Source of the DNA: Cyclobacterium marinum DSM 745
Lineage (GTDB): Bacteria > Bacteroidota > Bacteroidia > Cytophagales > Cyclobacteriaceae
DNA: 64,000 nt
Direction of reading: 5' to 3'
NCBI RefSeq assembly: GCF_000222485.1
Contig: NC_015914.1
Coordinates: 1,922,001 to 1,986,000, forward strand
Within the stretch, counting starts at the first letter, position 1, and the number at the start of each line of letters is the position of its first letter. The position numbers and the translations under genes were made by a program. This document shows, in pieces, positions 51,836-61,331 of the stretch. A model generated the notes under the pieces. That model saw only the letters and a program-made list of their open reading frames with translations, was not told the origin of the DNA and did not search any database.

Positions 51836-53116
51836 ATGGATCAGATTGCATTTGAATTAACACCGGAATTTGCGCGCAAAATGGATCTTGCTGATCCCCT
51901 CTCCACTTACCGGGAAAAATTTTATATTCCGGAAAAAAATGGACAACCACTAATCTATTTTTGTGGCAACTCTCTAGGTTTACAGCCCCGATCCGTCAAT
52001 GCTTATTTGAAACAAGAATTAGAAAAATGGGCCGACAAAGGAGTGGACGGTCACTTCGAAGGAAAAGTACCCTGGATAGATGCTAGGAAACCTTCTAAAA
52101 GGCTTATTGCACCTTTGGTAGGGGCCAATGAGCAGGAAGTAGTGGCCATGAATAGCCTCAGTGTAAATCTTCACCTTCTGATGGTGTCTTTTTACCAACC
52201 CAAAGGGAAAAAATTCAAGATCCTTACAGAAGCTGGAGCCTTTCCTTCTGATCAATATATTTTAGAGTCTCAGGTAAAATTCCATGGATTATTACCTGAT
52301 GAAGCCATTTTGGAAATGGCTCCAAGACCCAATGAACACCTGCTTCGCACGGAAGACATTCTTCAAAAAATAGAAGACCATAAGGATGAATTGGCCTTAA
52401 TCATGCTTTCCGGTCTTCAGTATTATACCGGACAGCTTTTTGATTTGGAAGCCATCAGTAGCGCCGCCAATAAACAGGGTATCACCATAGGATTTGACCT
52501 TGCCCATGCCATAGGCAATGTCCCTCTCCGACTGCATGACTGGGGAGTAGACTTTGCCACATGGTGTAGCTACAAATACCTCAACTCAGGACCCGGAAAT
52601 GTATCAGGAATCTTCGTGCATGAAAAGCACAGTGACAATGCCCTGCTACCCAGATTTGCCGGCTGGTGGGGACATGATGAGAAAGAACGATTTAAAATGA
52701 AAAAAGGCTTCAAACATATGCCCGGAGCTGATGGCTGGTTATTAAGCAACGACAATGTACTGGGTCTGGCTGCCCACCAAGCCTCCCTAGAATTATTTGC
52801 CGAAGCCGGCTTAGATAAATTAAGAAAAAAGAGCATTCAATTAACCAATTATCTCGAATTTGCAATTCACGAAACAATTAAAGACTCCGAATTGTTAGAA
52901 ATTATAACTCCCTTAAAACCAACTGAAAGGGGGTGCCAACTCTCTTTATTGATCCACAAAAAAGGCAAAGAAGTATTTGATTATTGGATTGATAATGGGG
53001 TAGTGGCTGATTGGAGAAATCCGAATGTCATCAGGCTTGCACCCACCCCTATGTACAATACCTTTCAGGATGTTTTCGAATTCAGTAGAATTCTTAAAAA
53101 CTCCTTGGAAGCATAA
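51836..53116 (+). CDS. kynU: Kynureninase
   Basis: The 426-residue PLP enzyme has the kynureninase pattern: YFCGNSLGLQPRS near 41, IGFDLAHAIGNVPL near 220 and the PLP-lysine segment TWCSYKYLNSGPG near 243, with the lysine forming the Schiff base. It cleaves 3-hydroxykynurenine (or kynurenine) to 3-hydroxyanthranilate (or anthranilate) and alanine. It sits between haaO and kmo, 25 bp before kmo, which makes 3-hydroxykynurenine the likely natural substrate. Confidence 0.96.
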   Translation: MDQIAFELTPEFARKMDLADPLSTYREKFYIPEKNGQPLIYFCGNSLGLQPRSVNAYLKQELEKWADKGVDGHFEGKVPWIDARKPSKRLIAPLVGANEQEVVAMNSLSVNLHLLMVSFYQPKGKKFKILTEAGAFPSDQYILESQVKFHGLLPDEAILEMAPRPNEHLLRTEDILQKIEDHKDELALIMLSGLQYYTGQLFDLEAISSAANKQGITIGFDLAHAIGNVPLRLHDWGVDFATWCSYKYLNSGPGNVSGIFVHEKHSDNALLPRFAGWWGHDEKERFKMKKGFKHMPGADGWLLSNDNVLGLAAHQASLELFAEAGLDKLRKKSIQLTNYLEFAIHETIKDSELLEIITPLKPTERGCQLSLLIHKKGKEVFDYWIDNGVVADWRNPNVIRLAPTPMYNTFQDVFEFSRILKNSLEA

Positions 53117-53141
53117 CCCCAAGAATTAAACCTGTTAAAAG

Positions 53142-54494
53142 ATGAAAGAGAAAATAGACCTATTGGGCGCGGGACTCATTGGATCCCTGCTCGCCATATA
53201 CCTCAAGAAAAGAGGACTAGACGTAACTATTTATGAAAAACGTCAGGATTGGCGCAATTCAAATAAATCCAGTGAAGGCAGATCAATCAATATGGCTTTG
53301 AGTGATCGGGGCTGGAATGCCCTCGAAAAAGCCGGCTTAAAGGAAAAAGTATTGCCCTATACCCTACCCATGTCCGGTAGGAGAATTCATGACGAACATG
53401 GGAACACTTATTTCCAGCCATACGGAAAAGAAAACCAAGCAATTTATTCCATCAGCAGAAATGTTTTCAATGAACTGCTAATGGATGAAGCAGAAGCGCT
53501 GGGAGCTAAAATCTATTTCAACCACAAGGTGGAAAATGTAAATGTGGCTAAGCGGGAAGTGGAATTTTGCCTTAAAGACGGTTCAGAAAAACGAATGACT
53601 TCAGATGTGCTAATTGGTTCTGACGGTTCCTATTCTGCGCTAAGAAATGCTTTCCAAAGCCAAGTAAGGTTTAATTTTTACCAAAAATTTATCTCTCACG
53701 GTTATAAGGAACTACATATTCCACCCACTGCTTCCGGAGATTTTGCATTGGACCCCAATGCCCTTCACATTTGGCCAAGAGGAAAGTTCATGCTCATTGC
53801 CTTGCCTAACTTGGACAAATCTTTTACCTGCACTCTCTTTTTGCCATTTGAGGGTTATAAGGTAAGTTTTGAAAATATTTATGATGACCGAGATGTCAGT
53901 CAAATCTTTAAAACTTACTTCAATGATGCTTTTGATTTGATGCCCAACTTGTTGGCAGATTTTAAAAACAATCCAACTTCTGCCCTTATCAATACAGAAT
54001 GCTACCCATGGACTGAAAACAATGCATTGCTTATAGGAGATGCAGCCCATGCCATGGTTCCTTTTTATGGACAAGGCATGAACTGTGGGTTTGAAGATTG
54101 TTTTATTTTGGATAAACTTATCGAGAAATATGGCACTTCATCTTGGGATCTGGTCTTTGAAAAATTTCAGAAGAAAAGAAAACGGGATACCGATGCCATC
54201 TGCCAGCTAGCCATGGATAATTTCAAAGAAATGAGTGATAATATAGCCGATCCTAAATTTTTGATCCGCAAAAAGATTGAGGCCAAACTGCATGAATTGT
54301 ATCCCAAAGAATGGCAACCGCTATACAGCATGATAACTTTTTCTAATATGCGCTATTCAGAAGCTTATGCCATTGGTAAACTTCAGGAAAAGGTGATGGA
54401 TGAGGTAATGAAGGATCCGGATGTCCCAAAAAACTGGAATGATTTAGATTATGCGGCCATCGTAGAAAAAGTGGAAACTTCCGGAGAGGTATAG
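53142..54494 (+). CDS. kmo: Kynurenine 3-monooxygenase
   Basis: The 450-residue flavoprotein has the FAD-binding LLGAGLIGSLLAIYLKKRG at the start, VLIGSDGSYSALRNAF near 156 (DG motif) and LIGDAAHAMVPFYGQGMNCGFEDC near 302 (GD motif). The C-terminus has a short hydrophobic/basic tail. It hydroxylates kynurenine with NADPH and oxygen to 3-hydroxykynurenine. Together with kynU and haaO it forms the middle of the pathway. It ends 1 bp from the stop of the convergent PLP enzyme gene. Confidence 0.96.
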   Translation: MKEKIDLLGAGLIGSLLAIYLKKRGLDVTIYEKRQDWRNSNKSSEGRSINMALSDRGWNALEKAGLKEKVLPYTLPMSGRRIHDEHGNTYFQPYGKENQAIYSISRNVFNELLMDEAEALGAKIYFNHKVENVNVAKREVEFCLKDGSEKRMTSDVLIGSDGSYSALRNAFQSQVRFNFYQKFISHGYKELHIPPTASGDFALDPNALHIWPRGKFMLIALPNLDKSFTCTLFLPFEGYKVSFENIYDDRDVSQIFKTYFNDAFDLMPNLLADFKNNPTSALINTECYPWTENNALLIGDAAHAMVPFYGQGMNCGFEDCFILDKLIEKYGTSSWDLVFEKFQKKRKRDTDAICQLAMDNFKEMSDNIADPKFLIRKKIEAKLHELYPKEWQPLYSMITFSNMRYSEAYAIGKLQEKVMDEVMKDPDVPKNWNDLDYAAIVEKVETSGEV

Positions 54495-54495
54495 G

Positions 54496-55419
54496 TCAAA
54501 GCTTAATTCCAAGCCTTTGCTCAAACCCTCTGATACCTTGCAATCCTCCGGTGTGCAAAACCAATATTTTACTTCCCCTTGGGAAGTAATCTTTCTCAAT
54601 CAAGTCAAAAAGGCCAAATACCATCTTACCTGTATAGACAGGTTCTAGTGGTAGATTGGCCTTTGTTTTTATTTCCTGTATAAATGAAATCAAGTTGGGC
54701 TTTTGTTTAGCGTATCCACCAAAGTGATAGGCCGTTTGGATTTCATACGAACATTTTGGCTGAATCCCATATTTGCGAAGTAACTGATCTACTTCAGAAA
54801 CAATAAAATTTCCTTTCAAGGATGAAAAACCAATAAGTTGTTGATCGGACTCCGCCCTTGCCAAGAGGCCTGCAAAAGTCCCTCCGGTCCCGATTGGACA
54901 AGTAACAAAGTCCATTGTCAAATCCTTGCCCTCCAATATTTCTTTGGTCCCTTTTATGGCCATTGCATTTGTTCCTCCCTCAGGGATCAAATAAAAATCT
55001 CCAAATCTCTCTTTCAACCTTTTAAGTTGGAATGAACTGTCTTTTTGCCTGTATTCTTCCCTAGACATTGGGTACAATTCCATCCCTTGATTCCGGGCAT
55101 CTTCCAAGGTGGGATTAAGTGGAGTGACCATTTCACCTCTAATGATGCCAATGGCCTTCAACCCATTGGCAGAAGCCGCCAAGGCAGTTGCATGGATATG
55201 GTTCGAATAAGCCCCTCCAAAAGTCAAGACCTTTGAAAGCCCGGATTTCTTGGCCACTTCTAGGTTATAATGTAGTTTATAAAATTTGTTACCTTGAACT
55301 TCAGTATGAAGTAAATCCAATCTTTTAACAATAACTTCCAATCCCTTATCATTGATTAAAGGGAGGTGGATATGCTGGTATATGGCAGGTTTTATCGCAG
55401 TCAAAATAAATTTATTCAA
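54496..55419 (-). CDS. ACC deaminase/D-cysteine desulfhydrase-family PLP enzyme
   Basis: The 307-residue fold-type II PLP protein has the cofactor lysine in EVQGNKFYKLHYNL near residue 41, the phosphate loop LTFGGAYSNHIHATA near 64 and IGTGGTFAGLL near 176. These features mark the ACC deaminase/D-cysteine desulfhydrase group. The natural substrate may be D-cysteine or another D-amino acid; ACC is not implied by context. It is convergent with kmo and divergent from rluD. Confidence 0.87.
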   Translation of the reverse strand: MNKFILTAIKPAIYQHIHLPLINDKGLEVIVKRLDLLHTEVQGNKFYKLHYNLEVAKKSGLSKVLTFGGAYSNHIHATALAASANGLKAIGIIRGEMVTPLNPTLEDARNQGMELYPMSREEYRQKDSSFQLKRLKERFGDFYLIPEGGTNAMAIKGTKEILEGKDLTMDFVTCPIGTGGTFAGLLARAESDQQLIGFSSLKGNFIVSEVDQLLRKYGIQPKCSYEIQTAYHFGGYAKQKPNLISFIQEIKTKANLPLEPVYTGKMVFGLFDLIEKDYFPRGSKILVLHTGGLQGIRGFEQRLGIKL

Positions 55420-55459
55420 TGATTTTAAGTCAAAACTCTAATTGTTTTTGATCAAATCC

Positions 55460-55467
55460 TAATTTTG
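55460..55467 (+). promoter_or_regulatory. Candidate -7 box just upstream of rluD
   Basis: TAATTTTG matches TAnnTTTG only 4 bp before the rluD ATG. A TTG at 55442-55444 is 15 bp upstream, shorter than the usual 19. If used, transcription would begin at the start codon and the message would be leaderless. Confidence 0.33.
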
Positions 55468-55471
55468 CACC

Positions 55472-56506
55472 ATGACAGAGATCACCAATGAAGAATTACC
55501 GGAAGAAGAAAGTTTTTTCGATCACCATGAATTGACTGTAGATCCCGGACAAAGTTCGATTAGAATAGATAAATTTATTACCGATAAATTGGCCTACGCT
55601 ACTAGAAATAAGGTGCAGCAAAGCATTACTTCAGGAATCGTTCAAGTAAATGGAGAAGTAGTAAAAGCCAATTATAAGATCAAAGCAGGTGACCTGATTA
55701 CCTTTGCTATGGAAAAGAGTCGCAAGGAAACTGAGGTGGTGGCAGAAGATCTCCCTTTAGACATCAGGTATGAAGATGATCACCTAATGGTGGTTTATAA
55801 ACCTGCCGGCATGGTGGTCCATCCTGCCCATGGCAATTGGACCGGCACCTTAGTCAATGCATTGGCATATTATTTTAAAAACCTACCGGAATTACCCGGA
55901 AATTCAGGACGTCCAGGTCTGGTACACAGAATAGACAAAGACACTAGTGGGCTCTTAGTTATTGCCAAATCTGAAAGGGCAATGACCCATCTTGCCAAGC
56001 AATTTTTTGATCATTCCATTTCAAGAAGCTATGTGGCTTTGGTCTGGGGGGAACCATCAGATGAGGAAGGAACGATCAATGTTCCCATAGGCCGGGGAGT
56101 CAAAGATCGAAAAGTAATGCAAGCATACCTGGAAGGTGATGCCGGAAAGTCAGCCATCACTCACTGGAAGGTAATCAAAAGACTGCGATATGTTACGCTT
56201 TTAAGCTGCGAGCTAGAAACCGGAAGGACACACCAGATTCGGGCACATATGAAATACATCGGCCACCCACTATTTAATGATGCCATGTATGGAGGGGATC
56301 AAATTCGAAAAGGAACCCAATATTCAAAATACAAATCTTACATACAAAACTGTTTTCAGATACTCCCCCGACAGGCATTACATGCCAAATCATTGGGTTT
56401 TATTCACCCGATAAGTGGTGAAGAATTGTATTTTGAAGGGGAAATACCGGAGGACATGTTAACGGTCATCGAAAAGTGGGAAAATTACGTAAAATTTGAA
56501 AAATAG
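55472..56506 (+). CDS. rluD: RluD-family large-subunit pseudouridine synthase
   Basis: The 344-residue protein has an N-terminal S4 RNA-binding domain (about 25-80; IRIDKFITDKL) and an RluA/RluD catalytic domain. The catalytic domain shows GLVHRIDKDTSGLLVIAKSE near 149 (nucleophile Asp in HRIDKDTSG) and ETGRTHQIRAHMKYIGHPLFND near 249. It converts uridines in 23S rRNA helix 69 to pseudouridine in E. coli RluD; this target is inferred. It is followed by the RNA gene region at 56.6-56.9 kb. Confidence 0.9.
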   Translation: MTEITNEELPEEESFFDHHELTVDPGQSSIRIDKFITDKLAYATRNKVQQSITSGIVQVNGEVVKANYKIKAGDLITFAMEKSRKETEVVAEDLPLDIRYEDDHLMVVYKPAGMVVHPAHGNWTGTLVNALAYYFKNLPELPGNSGRPGLVHRIDKDTSGLLVIAKSERAMTHLAKQFFDHSISRSYVALVWGEPSDEEGTINVPIGRGVKDRKVMQAYLEGDAGKSAITHWKVIKRLRYVTLLSCELETGRTHQIRAHMKYIGHPLFNDAMYGGDQIRKGTQYSKYKSYIQNCFQILPRQALHAKSLGFIHPISGEELYFEGEIPEDMLTVIEKWENYVKFEK

Positions 56507-56645
56507 CCAATTATCGAATCTCTAAAACTAGCAATAAATTAAGACCTATAATTTTCAACACAGCTTAATTTTGCCTTTATTTTTATCGATATTATAATTT
56601 TTTAATATTTCTAATGATAATATTTTCTAAATCTCTGTGATTTAT

Positions 56646-56653
56646 TACATTTG
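56646..56653 (+). promoter_or_regulatory. Candidate -7 box of the tRNA-like RNA gene
   Basis: TACATTTG is a perfect TAnnTTTG match 69 bp upstream of the predicted 5' end of the tRNA-like RNA. The -33 region has only a run of Ts (56623-56626). A 5' leader of about 60 nt would need trimming, as RNase P does for tRNAs. Confidence 0.4.
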
Positions 56654-56722
56654 TTATATCAAAATATAATTCGGTTTCCGCCTTGGAAAAGCGAAGTCAT
56701 TTTTGATGAAGTTCTCAGACAC

Positions 56723-56863
56723 TGTAGGGTGTTGAAATTGGCAGACATGCCCTCCTGTCTCGGGGGTGAGGAAACCGGTTTATCCGGCGTATTGGACAAA
56801 GCACACATCGAGCTCAATGTGTTGCCTAACAACCTCGTGGAGGTTCGAATCCTTCTCCTACAG
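56723..56863 (+). ncRNA. tRNA-like RNA, leucine-type body with a 72-nt structured variable region
   Basis: The two ends pair as an acceptor stem (TGTAGGG with TCCTACA, one G-U; an eighth C-G pair is possible). All conserved tRNA positions I could check are present: U8, A14, G18-G19, A21, U33, and the T-loop TTCGAAT on a 5-bp stem GGAGG/CCTTC. The D-arm resembles leucine tRNA, though one D-stem pair (10-25) is U-U. The anticodon stem is CCCTC/GGGGG. Its loop CTGTCTC places GUC at 34-36 and U at 37, which fits neither leucine nor a normal purine 37. The variable region (56767-56838) is about four times usual length, with base stem GAGG/CCTC and two inner hairpins. No CCA is encoded. It could be a regulatory RNA, a decayed tRNA or a tRNA with a spliced insert. 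Confidence 0.6.
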
Positions 56864-56874
56864 CATTTATACTC

Positions 56875-56916
56875 AAGCCGGTGAATATATTGATACATAT
56901 ATCCATCGGCTTTTTA
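56875..56916 (+). terminator. Intrinsic terminator of the tRNA-like RNA gene
   Basis: A stem AAGCCGGTG (56875-56883) pairs with CATCGGCTT (56904-56912), with one G-U pair, and encloses a second ATATAT stem. A T-rich tract follows (TTTTTAATTTTTT). It begins 11 bp after the RNA's 3' end, with no coding gene in between, so it must end a transcript of this region. Confidence 0.8.
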
Positions 56917-56996
56917 ATTTTTTAGTGGTTCATTTTTTTCTTTTAGCAGTCTTTCTTAAACATTTTCCTCTTTATTTTGTATTCTTGATCTGAAAA

Positions 56997-59900
56997 ATGA
57001 GTGGAGAGCAATTAGATATCAAAAAATCTGGAAGAAAAAGAAAGCGATTTCTGAAAATCATTTCAGTTCTTGCCTTTCTTGCGGTCTCTATCCACTTTAT
57101 TCTTTTTTTCGCAGCTGACTGGTTGTTTAGAGAGTATATCCAACAACAGGTAGAGCATGTTTCAAAAGGCAAATACTCCGTAGACTTTGATAGGGTGTAC
57201 CTTTCCTTGTTTCAGCGTGGTCTTTTTGTAGAAAAGTTTGAACTAGTACCAACAGACCCTACAATTTTTGACGCCTTAGAAATTCCCTATTATAAAATTT
57301 CAGTAGATCAATTGGATATATTGGGCCTAAACTTCATAGGGGAAGACGGCAAACTAACCGCCGATGAACTTCGCTTAACAGCTCCCATGATCCAGTCCAA
57401 ACAACAATTGGAACTTACTGAGAACAAGGAATTCAGCCCTCTCAAGCAACTTGAATATGAAATAAAGAAATCGCTTAACGGCCCCCTAAAAGAAATCTTT
57501 ATCAATGACTTTTACATTGATCAGGCTAACTTTTTAGTAGAAAATTTCCTAAGTCAAAAATCCATTGCCGCACAAAACACCAATTTATACCTTAAAAATA
57601 TTCACCTCACCGGAGGAGAGGAAGAAAACGCTCCTTTTGGCATTGAGGGCTTTCAATTGAATTTTGATGACTTTGAGATTTCATTGGCAGATAGCATTCA
57701 TAAAGTTATGGCAGAAAAAGTGGCCGTCTCTTCATTGGAAAAGCAAATATTGGCAAGTAAGGTAAGGGTTACGCCTAATCTGGAAAAAACGGCTGATGTC
57801 TACTATGAAATATTTCTGGAAAAGCTGGCCTTGACAGATGCTGACATCATGGAGATGTTCCAAACGTCAAAAGTAGCCATTGGAGACCTCAATCTTAACG
57901 CACCGCATATCGTTTTGTATACCGATAGGAATGCGATGGATGAGGAAGCAAGAACTACTGATATGTACGATTTGGTGGAAGACTTACTAGAGTCAATCAC
58001 CATAAAAACTTTGACCATTGATGATGGACAATTCTTACAAAGAGGTGTTCATAACCCAAATAAAAACAGAATTGAAGCAGATGAAATTCAATTTTCTTTG
58101 GAAGAAGTATACCTGGGACAAGATGAGGAGCTTAAAAAAGATAATTTTTTATATGCTAGGAATGCAACATTAGAAATTGATCGGGCGCGAATAGCTTTGG
58201 CTGATGGGGTTCATTGGATTTCAGGACACAATATCTACCTGTCTACTATTGATGACAAGGTAAGGATCAATGAAATAGCACTTAAACCGGAAGTGAATGT
58301 GGACAGTATTGCTGAGGCTTCACTTTTTGAAATAAAAGTGCCCCTGTTGGAATTTGCCAATGCAAACCTTAGAAAAGTCTACAATGAAAACATCATTGAC
58401 ATAGGAGAATTACTTATCAACGCACCGGATGTAGTGATCAAAGATATCCTTGGCACTGCTACTGCCGATAATAATCCTTCCCAAATGACAGACCTCCAGC
58501 AATTAACTAAAGGTTTTTTTAAAGCTGTATACGTCCAGAAATTAGAAGTAGAGAATGGTAGCCTTGTATTAGACAATCACCTCCGAGTAAGGCAAGACAG
58601 CTTGGCATTCGGGAAAATAAACTTTCTGTTAGAGAATTTTCAGCTGGACGACAAATACATGTCAGACACTTCTTTGAGGATATTTCTGGCCGACAACCTA
58701 AGGCTTGAGATTGAAGACTACGCCCTTAAATTGTCAGACAACCTGCATCTTTTTGTTGCTGACAAAATATTAATTGACACCCAAAAGAACCTTCTACATG
58801 TAGATGGGTTTAAACTAAAACCTTTCTCCCCAGAAGCTGTACTTCCTTTGCTGGATAAATATGGGAGAACAACCGTTTTGGACATTGAGATTCCGGAATT
58901 TTCTGCAACCGGAGTAGATATCAATCAAGCTTATTTTCAAAACAAGTTATTTATCAATCATATTGACATCCCCAGCCCCATCATCCATTGGACAAAATAC
59001 ATTCCCAAAGAAAATGAGAAACAGGAAAAACTAAAACGCGGAGATGTATTGGATTTGATAACCAGCTATTTCAAAGTGATCAGTATAGACTCTTTGAGCA
59101 CCGAAAAAGGCACCTTCAATTATGAAAACTTTGCCAACGAACAGTTTAGATCCTTCGCCGAAAATGATATCTCAGTAAAGATCAGGAATTTTTACCTGGA
59201 CGAAAACATAAATCCTGCGGCCAACCGAACCTTGTTTTCAGATGAAGTAGACGTCAACCTTAACAATTACCTATTCAACTTAGCCAATGGAAAATACAGT
59301 ATTGTTGCCGGCAGTATAGGCTTCAATTCTGCGCGAGAAGAAATCAATACCTTCGATGTTAAGCTAATGCCCAATAAAGACCTGAAATCCAAAGTCAGTA
59401 TTGAGGCAAGCTTTCCCGATTTAAGCTTTAGCGGTGTAGATCTGGAAGCCTTTTTGTTTGACAACACTTTGGCTTTAACCAAACTTCGGTTTTCAGATGC
59501 TGAAGTGAATTTGTCCATCAACAGGGCTTTCAATAAAGAAGAAGAAAAACCAAATGAGGAAAAAAAGAAAAGTAGAAACCTTCCAAAAACAATTGATGTA
59601 ATAAAAATAGATTCCATATTGGCCACCAATGGTTCTTTTAATGTGGCGAATTACCAGGAAGGAAATGACCTACAATTGATCAATACCGGAATCAATATAG
59701 CCATAGCAGACTTTCTGCTTGATTCTACCAGGTTATCGAATGGAGACATTGCCAGCTTCTTTTCGACAATGGCCTTGGATGTGGACAATTTTTCTTTGGC
59801 ACTTAAGGACAGTGTTCATACAGTCACTTTTTCAAAAATCCAACTTGACTCAAGGAAGGAAGAAATATTGATAGAAAATGTGAATGTGGTACCTAAAGAA

Positions 59901-61331
59901 GCCCCTGAAAAACTGCAAGGTCCGGTAATTAAAGCACATATCCCTCAGATCAGTATCAATACACGCTCCCTTACAAGTTTTCAAAAAACCGGAGAGCTGG
60001 ATGTATCCCTTTTGCGATTAACAGATCCTGAGGTCAACCTCTACCTAAGCAAAAATGAACCCCCTATTGAATTACCTAATGGGCAGGGAAAGGAAATAAG
60101 CCGTAAAATATTGGAGAGTATCCTGATCAGAAATTTCAAACTCAATGGTGGAAGTTTTGCCCTAATAGACAAATCAGACACTATTCCCCAAAGGGCCTTT
60201 AAAAACCTTAGGCTTATTCTCAGTGACCTGAATTTTGACTTTACACAAAAACAGCAATTCAATTCTGACTTCTTTTTCAATGAGGATTTCCGCTTTGAGT
60301 TCAAGGACTATGAACTGAATTTACCGGACAGCTTAAATAAAGTAAGCATTGGTAAATTAATGGTTTCTAAGGACAAATTGATCCTTAATGAAGTTCGGTT
60401 TTTACCAAGAGTAGGTCTGTTTGCCTATGCTCGAGAAGTAGGAAAGCAAACAGATGTAATGGAATTGTATGTGCCAAAAATCATTATAGAAGGCTTAAAT
60501 CTAAAGAGATTTATTGCTGAAGAGAAGGTTGAAGCCCTTAGCATGACCTTGGAAATGCCACAGTTGGAAGTTTTTAGAGACAAGAGAATTGAAGAAGACA
60601 CCACCGTGGTGAAGTTGATGCCCCAGCAGTTGATGGAGCTATCCAAGCAGATCATCGAGTTGGACACCTTAATTGTAAAAGAGGGCATGCTTACTTATAG
60701 GGAATTCCCGGTCAAAGGAATGGTACCCGGCGAAATTACTTTTGATCAGTTTAATGCTAAAATGTACCCTTTTAGATTAGGGAAATTTGGAGAAGACAGG
60801 AAAAAGCCCGAGGTGGAAGCCAATTTTAGAATCAACAAAGTGGCTCCGGTAAAGGCCACAGTTCAAATGCAATTTGAAGACCCTTACCCTATTGCTGTGG
60901 AGGCAGAGGTAGGTGCATTTGACCTTCCTTCCATCAACTCCATATTGGCTACCAATGCTTTTATTACGGTAAAAAGAGGCATGGTAAGGGAGGGAAAATG
61001 GCATTTTGTGGTGGATAAAAATGAAGCCATTGGTGAGATGACCTTAAAATACAACAAGCTCAAAGTGCAGCTTTTGGATGAGCGAACATTGAAGGATGCC
61101 GGAGGAAGAAAAGGTATTTTAACATTTGTCATCAATGCTTTGGCCCTAAGAAAAAACAATCCTAGGCCAATTTTTAACCGGCTGGTAAGTTCTCCAATTT
61201 ATGTGGAAAGAATCCCTTATAAATTTGTTTTCAATTATATGTGGAAGGCTACTTTTTCAGGATTAATGGGCAGTTCAGGCTTAATGCAACCCAAAATTCC
61301 CAAGAATGAAGAGGAAGAAGATGAATCGTAA
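56997..61331 (+). CDS. Giant AsmA-like envelope protein with seven ~175-residue repeats
   Basis: The 1444-residue protein has one N-terminal transmembrane helix (about 20-42) and is otherwise beta-rich, as in the AsmA/TamB/YhdP family. Seven units recur at a spacing of 169-183 residues. Their opening strands start near residues 164 (EIFINDFYIDQANF), 333 (TIKTLTIDDGQF), 510 (VQKLEVENGSL), 693 (SIDSLSTEKGTF), 866 (KIDSILATNGSF), 1041 (LIRNFKLNGGSF) and 1218 (ELDTLIVKEGML). Within most units a second segment (LADGVH/LKDSVH-like) and a third follow. The last 200 residues form an AsmA-like C-terminal domain. AsmA-like proteins of this shape form hydrophobic grooves that carry phospholipids between membranes; that role is inferred here. 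No partner gene is adjacent. Confidence 0.85.
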   Translation: MSGEQLDIKKSGRKRKRFLKIISVLAFLAVSIHFILFFAADWLFREYIQQQVEHVSKGKYSVDFDRVYLSLFQRGLFVEKFELVPTDPTIFDALEIPYYKISVDQLDILGLNFIGEDGKLTADELRLTAPMIQSKQQLELTENKEFSPLKQLEYEIKKSLNGPLKEIFINDFYIDQANFLVENFLSQKSIAAQNTNLYLKNIHLTGGEEENAPFGIEGFQLNFDDFEISLADSIHKVMAEKVAVSSLEKQILASKVRVTPNLEKTADVYYEIFLEKLALTDADIMEMFQTSKVAIGDLNLNAPHIVLYTDRNAMDEEARTTDMYDLVEDLLESITIKTLTIDDGQFLQRGVHNPNKNRIEADEIQFSLEEVYLGQDEELKKDNFLYARNATLEIDRARIALADGVHWISGHNIYLSTIDDKVRINEIALKPEVNVDSIAEASLFEIKVPLLEFANANLRKVYNENIIDIGELLINAPDVVIKDILGTATADNNPSQMTDLQQLTKGFFKAVYVQKLEVENGSLVLDNHLRVRQDSLAFGKINFLLENFQLDDKYMSDTSLRIFLADNLRLEIEDYALKLSDNLHLFVADKILIDTQKNLLHVDGFKLKPFSPEAVLPLLDKYGRTTVLDIEIPEFSATGVDINQAYFQNKLFINHIDIPSPIIHWTKYIPKENEKQEKLKRGDVLDLITSYFKVISIDSLSTEKGTFNYENFANEQFRSFAENDISVKIRNFYLDENINPAANRTLFSDEVDVNLNNYLFNLANGKYSIVAGSIGFNSAREEINTFDVKLMPNKDLKSKVSIEASFPDLSFSGVDLEAFLFDNTLALTKLRFSDAEVNLSINRAFNKEEEKPNEEKKKSRNLPKTIDVIKIDSILATNGSFNVANYQEGNDLQLINTGINIAIADFLLDSTRLSNGDIASFFSTMALDVDNFSLALKDSVHTVTFSKIQLDSRKEEILIENVNVVPKEAPEKLQGPVIKAHIPQISINTRSLTSFQKTGELDVSLLRLTDPEVNLYLSKNEPPIELPNGQGKEISRKILESILIRNFKLNGGSFALIDKSDTIPQRAFKNLRLILSDLNFDFTQKQQFNSDFFFNEDFRFEFKDYELNLPDSLNKVSIGKLMVSKDKLILNEVRFLPRVGLFAYAREVGKQTDVMELYVPKIIIEGLNLKRFIAEEKVEALSMTLEMPQLEVFRDKRIEEDTTVVKLMPQQLMELSKQIIELDTLIVKEGMLTYREFPVKGMVPGEITFDQFNAKMYPFRLGKFGEDRKKPEVEANFRINKVAPVKATVQMQFEDPYPIAVEAEVGAFDLPSINSILATNAFITVKRGMVREGKWHFVVDKNEAIGEMTLKYNKLKVQLLDERTLKDAGGRKGILTFVINALALRKNNPRPIFNRLVSSPIYVERIPYKFVFNYMWKATFSGLMGSSGLMQPKIPKNEEEEDES

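Follow-up and report, generated by a model that had tools for sequence, protein, structure and literature searches.

The gene at positions 56723-56864 (forward strand) of the window, the whole 64,000-nucleotide stretch of Cyclobacterium marinum DSM 745 DNA analysed here, encodes a 142-nt tRNA-like RNA (TLR, U1 to C74), which is defined by its sequence, homology, covariation and comparison with relatives and belongs to a real family of RNAs of Bacteroidota and their phages, uncatalogued by ARAGORN and Rfam. We give slightly better than an even chance to the reading that TLR acts in tRNA-dependent asparagine synthesis, as a carrier that does not decode. Comparison of genomes establishes the family, its structure and invariant bases, a divergent AsnC-like gene, and the co-occurrence of TLR with GatB and with the lack of canonical AsnB. 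The window gene is called neither by ARAGORN (whole window) nor by Rfam (54000-60000), and the other TLR loci scanned likewise have no tRNA call from either, except for one compact copy of 77 nt. No description of TLR was found in the titles and opening parts of abstracts of the literature searched, nor in passages of PMC7609411, PMC9976931 and PMC4206432.

All elements of the window TLR lie on the forward strand. The acceptor stem (56723-56729/56856-56862) has seven pairs, one of them G-U, with U1 paired to A72 and G2 to C71. The D stem (56732-56734/56746-56748) consists of two pairs and a U-U mismatch, at a position where 60 of 72 aligned sequences have A-U or U-A, and the D loop is longer by one base after G19, an A rather than a U by our own numbering. 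The anticodon stem (56750-56754/56762-56766) closes the loop CUGUCUC (56755-56761), with U33 present and U at position 37; since all four phage tRNA-Asp genes examined have the loop CUGUCAC, TLR has an Asp loop that bears U37 in place of A37. The variable region of 72 nt (56767-56838) holds a structured domain (56768-56836), formed by the base stem V1 GAGG/CCTC (56768-56771/56833-56836), stem V2 (56792-56794/56830-56832) and a near-invariant internal loop GACAAA/CUAA (56795-56800/56826-56829) below an apical hairpin; the self-complementary hairpin loop GAGCUC (56810-56815) is a possible kissing-dimer site. The T arm GGAGG UUCGAAU CCUUC (56839-56855) is followed by the discriminator G73 and C74 (56863-56864). 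The folding energy of the window TLR alone is uninformative (z 0.00).

The structure was verified on an alignment of 72 of 75 representatives, in which the window copy stands for its locus and from which both L090 and L178 and one N-bearing copy of L094 were omitted; only copies starting with TG and ending with GC were taken. The aligned sequences have a cloverleaf with 7/5/5 stems, G18-G19 and a UUCGA T loop. Every stem is supported: 97.9% of the alignment cells are paired, both sides have changed in 18 of 28 pairs, and the covariation is 0.399 versus 0.162 in shuffles (0 of 500) and 0.078-0.106 with slid partners. Across the family the variable arm retains the base stem, the second stem and an internal loop that hardly varies (A, any, A, A, A opposite CUAA); the apical hairpin beyond this loop differs widely in length, and in the shortest copies the internal loop itself varies. 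A hidden open reading frame in TLR was rejected because of the free length variation of the variable arm. Short palindromic hairpins such as CCCGATAGCTATCGGG are inserted in the variable arms at four loci (L046, L052, L124, L239), and upstream of the full copy at L052 there is a second, broken TLR start carrying such a hairpin in the D loop.

In the nearest relative (L002) all 142 TLR bases are identical, versus 51 of 129 fourfold sites (40%) differing in the adjoining RluA-family gene. At the same locus a full TLR is present in all 15 relatives compared, identical in one and with 82-99% ungapped identity in the other 14. The initial annotation had proposed a tRNA-like RNA gene with a giant structured variable region, and this is confirmed by blastn matches of the window region in 78 of 99 related genomes (its own genome counted), by the matches from several genomes of the same genus, which stop almost exactly at the TLR borders, and by the covariation. 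It had also named two checks in related genomes, homologues with conserved pairing and an ordinary tRNA-Leu at the same locus; the former are present and their pairing covaries, and the latter was found in none of the 15 relatives.

By the covariance model there are nine TLR copies in the C. marinum genome, the next-ranking matches being tRNA-Leu, and tandem arrays of up to six copies (L036) occur in relatives. Thus the gene, described initially as stand-alone, is alone at the window locus and is not so in its genome or its family. Between the dispersed copies of one C. marinum locus (L032), two 331-aa open reading frames with identical displayed protein sequence resemble IS110-type transposases by eye, and a repeat around AAAAAAAAGCAACAATACCGCC recurs among these copies. 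The loci first fetched gave 270 matches and 264 copies with a T loop, 210 of them distinct, and a DNA pattern search detected at least 119 stretches in named genomes. All 80 record titles among the matches listed are Bacteroidota by name, Cytophagales among them; the taxa among the pattern matches listed include Cyclobacteriaceae, Fulvivirga, Spirosoma, Aquirufa, Saprospiraceae, Chitinophagaceae, Flavobacteriales MAGs and others. The covariance model found TLR in 42 of 392 genomes of a phylum sample (best E < 1e-20), and these matches are set apart from tRNA-Leu-sized hits by score and length. Copies of 108 to 200 nt were seen, with a variable domain of several tens to more than 100 nt. The compact TLR of genome G072 (L265:3338-3414; 77 nt, E = 8.3e-18), which we treated separately, is devoid of the variable-arm domain and is called tRNA-Asp(atc) by ARAGORN; this genome has both AsnA and GatB.

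The pattern search also identified 50 TLR-bearing viral contigs, and no TLR matches were obtained by blastn in the plasmid and GenBank-phage collections. The phage genes neighbouring TLR are shared only lineage-wise. In five viral contigs (L167, L172, L177, L191, L200) TLR and tRNA-Ser share a strand and are separated by 4 nt, and the N73-C74 ends are also found in most ordinary tRNAs examined in the C. marinum genome and four phage contigs; both observations fit the expectation for tRNA-type maturation, and TLR is probably matured like a tRNA. One of these contigs has a near-threshold match to the Rfam freshwater-1 RNA (L172:8501-8562; 70 bits, cut-off 72).

The window copy is flanked on the same strand by a gene of an RluA/RluD-family pseudouridine synthase upstream (55472-56506) and by a 1444-aa open reading frame downstream (56997-61331), which is AsmA-like by eye and has no Pfam or NCBIfam matches. 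Both neighbours are conserved at this type of locus and occur together at 44 loci. Further upstream, two adjacent open reading frames (51836-54494) resemble kynureninase and kynurenine 3-monooxygenase by eye. A candidate promoter box TACATTTG (56646-56653, forward strand) fits the Bacteroidota -7 box TAnnTTTG, and similar boxes were seen by eye about 20-75 nt upstream of many TLR copies; in a sigma-70 scan promoter-like sites were no commoner than in shuffles. The strong intrinsic terminator attributed to the gene from the outset, an inverted repeat followed by T-runs (about 56875-56915, forward strand), is upheld by the folding energy of its hairpin (-16.6 kcal/mol, z -5.05, 0 of 200 shuffles); a simple terminator scan detected none. 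At many loci (L231, L269, L258-L262) the 3' end of TLR is separated from the terminator by a trailer resembling GGTTTATnnTTnnTT.

The commonest TLR locus is of another type, with an AsnC-like regulator gene, and others differ from both. Such a gene is present at 77 of 200 non-viral loci, some of them overlapping, in a set that omits viral loci, the C. marinum duplicates L212-L224 and six further loci where no TLR was parsed, and it is divergent from TLR in all 77, with the two starts 119-242 nt apart (median 146). The one protein scanned (L045) has AsnC as its best NCBIfam match, with 168 bits against 85 for the next and below the 227-bit equivalog cut-off. In E. coli, asnC is divergent from asnA. 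Three genomes of family f23 that have no TLR (L271-L273) keep the AsnC-like gene together with a short unit, in which a trailer similar to GGTTTATnnTTnnTT persists with the terminator. In TLR-negative genomes no diverged TLR was detected upstream of AsnC-like genes: the retrieved stretches, scanned with a fuzzy motif, gave two stray single matches.

Since the loop bases in the alignment and in the scans of named genomes and viral contigs were partly fixed by the search pattern, base counts were limited to 57 distinct copies found with the covariance model trained on the alignment. All 57 have U35, C36, C38, G73, U1, G2, C71, A72 and C74, and thus none has G1-C72. G34 is present in 53 and lost in four; U33 is kept in only 45, and position 37 is a purine in four, with pyrimidines in the other 53. 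Neither U1 nor C74 is absolute, since the 210 distinct copies of the earlier reading include one that starts with A and one with a GT end. A review gives G73, G34, U35, C36 and C38 as the determinants of Asp identity, with G2-C71 as a minor one, and states that U1-A72 permits Asp-to-Asn amidation, with G1-C72 and U20a counting against it (PMC9976931); U1-A72 is the pair recognised by bacterial GatCAB, according to another paper (PMC4206432). The bases of TLR are thus the AspRS identity set together with the U1-A72 pair read by GatCAB, minus the requirements of the ribosome. Homologues, covariation, the identity with L002 and the base losses at U33 and position 37 all support the initial proposal of a non-decoding tRNA mimic, and we regard TLR, on these comparative grounds, as being under selection and not decoding.

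Two other identities were considered and rejected. Ordinary tRNA-Asp function disagrees with the loss of U33 and purine-37, and four viral contigs (L177, L191, L194, L210) have a normal tRNA-Asp as well. A SerRS substrate, an idea raised by G73 and the long arm, conflicts with the compact copy L265, which has no arm, and with the G1-C72 pair kept by most bacterial tRNA-Ser (PMC9976931). An additional AspRS in TLR-positive genomes was rejected as well: in the 29 genomes searched there is one enzyme per genome over the cut-off, TLR-positive and TLR-negative genomes being alike in this, with no visible difference.

From the identity bases we predicted, before testing, that genomes with TLR would have GatCAB and tend to be without asparagine synthetases. 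With GatCAB scored by GatB alone, GatB is present in all 42 TLR-positive genomes. Within the same class of the whole sample it occurs in 39 of 39 TLR-positive and 5 of 66 TLR-negative genomes (Fisher p 1e-23, a value that ignores the kinship of related genomes and thus overstates the significance; the class counts cover 105 genomes named in match listings and leave 10 genomes without a match uncounted). The five exceptions are G072, with its compact TLR, and G139, G250, G296 and G474. In a set of 80 genomes of our own choice from the phylum sample, the first to be searched and later extended to the whole sample for GatB only, GatB is found in one of 27 TLR-negative genomes of the class. The same pattern holds inside two families, with GatB in 8 of 8 TLR-positive versus 0 of 3 TLR-negative genomes of f23, and in 12 of 12 versus 0 of 2 of f24. 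In other classes all 10 chosen TLR-negative genomes have GatB, so it looks needed for TLR and not sufficient.

Canonical AsnB over the curated cut-off is found in none of the 42 TLR-positive genomes versus 20 of 27 TLR-negative genomes of the class, and AsnA in 4 versus 8 of the same sets. AsnRS is present in all 42 and GlnRS in 35, so in most TLR-positive genomes translation does not need GatCAB; 34 of the 42 have AsnRS, GlnRS and GatB with neither AsnA nor canonical AsnB. Neither synthetase over the cut-off is also the state of 5 of the 27 TLR-negative genomes of the class (G151 lying just under it). Of the 42 TLR-positive genomes, 39 have proteins of the asparagine synthase-like family TIGR01536 (E <= 1e-30), most of about 590-690 aa, in most genomes above the family cut-off, and some of these proteins may make asparagine; the other three (G410, G246, G471), which belong to the 34 with AsnRS, GlnRS and GatB, have no such match and neither AsnA nor AsnB. 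One of the four TLR-positive genomes with AsnA is that of C. marinum, which has no GlnRS; GatCAB is therefore needed there for Gln-tRNA, and asparagine has another source.

We infer the following sequence of events, from transcription of TLR onward. AspRS would charge TLR with aspartate, reading G34, U35, C36, C38 and G73. GatCAB would then recognise U1-A72 and convert Asp-TLR to Asn-TLR, which would be kept from GAC and GAU codons by its very large variable arm and by the loss of U33 and of the purine at 37. Deacylation of Asn-TLR would yield free asparagine for AsnRS, and the AsnC-like regulator, divergent at the commonest locus, would set the level of TLR by the asparagine supply. Against the carrier stand the absence of G1-C72, which helps E. 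coli AspRS, the loss of G34 in four of the 57 copies, the rare exceptions at U1 and C74, the extra D-loop base after G19, and AsnA in the C. marinum genome and three other TLR-positive ones. The TIGR01536 proteins, the TLR-negative genomes of the class that have GatB or have neither AsnA nor AsnB, the uniform AspRS, the AsnC match below its equivalog cut-off and the position of the window copy at a different locus also count against it. A regulatory function, suggested initially for this RNA, is not what the evidence favours; it points rather to a carrier RNA of the Asp-to-Asn amidation pathway.

Staphylococcal cell-wall synthesis uses a non-proteogenic tRNA-Gly. Like TLR as read here, it is a tRNA acting outside the ribosome; the amino acid, pathway and structure differ. 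TLR resembles tRNA-Asp (GUC) in the loop CUGUCnC, G73, G2-C71 and C74, and differs by U1-A72 in place of G1-C72, a pyrimidine at position 37, a Leu-type D arm and the large variable domain. It shares the D-arm sequence and the long variable arm with tRNA-Leu and other class II tRNAs, which are the best ordinary-tRNA matches in its own genome; in contrast to tRNA-Leu, it has G73 instead of A73, an Asp-type loop, and a variable arm that is usually several times longer and structured. The tRNA-Sec-like allo-tRNAs and selC* tRNA-Cys (PMC7609411) are likewise uncommon tRNA variants with long variable arms; tRNA-Sec (13 bp) and allo-tRNAs (9/3) have a longer acceptor/T branch, whereas TLR is 7/5 in the 72-sequence alignment and non-decoding. 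The closest known pathway, tRNA-Asn-dependent asparagine synthesis by a non-discriminating AspRS and GatCAB in Deinococcus, Thermus and Bdellovibrio (PMC4206432), is alike in AspRS and GatCAB, in U1-A72, and in genomes with AsnRS and GlnRS and no usual asparagine synthetase. The proposed carrier is, in contrast, a separate non-decoding RNA with an Asp (C36) loop, and so an ordinary discriminating AspRS would suffice.

Most phage TLR copies have a GACCAC element followed by palindromes. Palindromes of at least 6 nt are present in 23 of 25 distinct phage segments (8.0 expected) and of at least 8 nt in 15 (2.4 expected), and the palindrome sum exceeds that of all 1000 shuffles, in a control that shuffles single bases and on segments that are related. 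The sequences GCGCGC, GCATGC, GCTAGC and GCCGGC, that is, every self-complementary centre, all occur; the other two segments (L178, L182) have a long hairpin in place of the palindrome. Many host short-form TLRs have the hairpin loop GAGCUC, and minimal forms are without a palindromic loop. We read the palindromic loops as putative kissing dimers, not universal in the family. The HIV-1 DIS is a kissing loop; phage TLRs share with it GCGCGC/GUGCAC palindromes flanked by or near purines, the RNA is unrelated, and dimerisation of TLR is putative.

Next after the carrier come scaffold and decoy roles within its pathway. TLR may be a scaffold or regulatory RNA that binds AspRS and GatCAB without itself carrying the amino acid, asparagine being formed on ordinary tRNA-Asn with the help of a non-discriminating AspRS. 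This would suit the near-invariant internal loop of the variable arm and a published survey, by which 18 genera, some of them Bacteroidetes, have AsnRS, GlnRS and GatCAB, no asparagine synthetase, and U1-A72 in tRNA-Asn in every case (PMC4206432). The one cellular tRNA-Asn that we examined (G127) also has U1-A72, though this genome has neither GatB nor TLR at the threshold. However, a scaffold could do without G73 and the Asp set of loop bases, and the AspRS N-terminal sequences of six TLR-positive and four TLR-negative genomes have Leu or Lys, never His, with no split between the two groups, at a site where His is a marker of non-discriminating enzymes; we consider the scaffold unlikely. Some other function, such as an anticodon-nuclease decoy or a protein-binding RNA, with the GatB and AsnB patterns coming from shared ancestry, could agree with the 50 viral contigs, 21 of 49 of which when scanned had tRNA genes in the available stretch, and with the relatedness of the genomes; it is made improbable by the syntenic chromosomal loci common to many genera and by the joint absence of TLR and GatB inside f23 and f24. 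A role as decoy or charging sink, by which TLR would titrate AspRS under AsnC control and slow the Asp-tRNA supply, would account for the retained AspRS determinants, the lost decoding and the AsnC-like neighbour, and leaves U1-A72, the tie with GatB and the missing canonical AsnB unexplained; we hold it to be slightly less probable still. Finally, a decaying tRNA-Leu pseudogene or chance fold, which the ranking of the own-genome tRNA-Leu genes and the thermodynamic z might bring to mind, is refuted by the covariation and the L002 identity and keeps practically no weight.

The enzymes and the pathway are known already; a dedicated carrier RNA would be new. If the carrier reading is true, these organisms set aside a tRNA, never used for decoding, on which to make an amino acid. 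This would explain how many Bacteroidota with AsnRS, GlnRS and GatCAB and no canonical asparagine synthetase obtain asparagine without recourse to a relaxed AspRS, and also why phages bring TLR along. It would further offer a natural experiment separating recognition by synthetase, amidotransferase and ribosome on one RNA. It would also add an RNA family that ARAGORN and Rfam, the two annotation tools applied, pass over. Overall, and with somewhat less than even confidence, we tentatively picture a phylum-level class of tRNA that left translation, keeping the AspRS bases, adding the GatCAB pair and dropping the ribosome bases; it would act as a reusable carrier for making asparagine in the absence of the usual synthetase. 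A regulator of asparagine type would accompany its locus, phages would have versions of their own, and the phage forms, like some of those in hosts, would dimerise via palindromic kissing loops.
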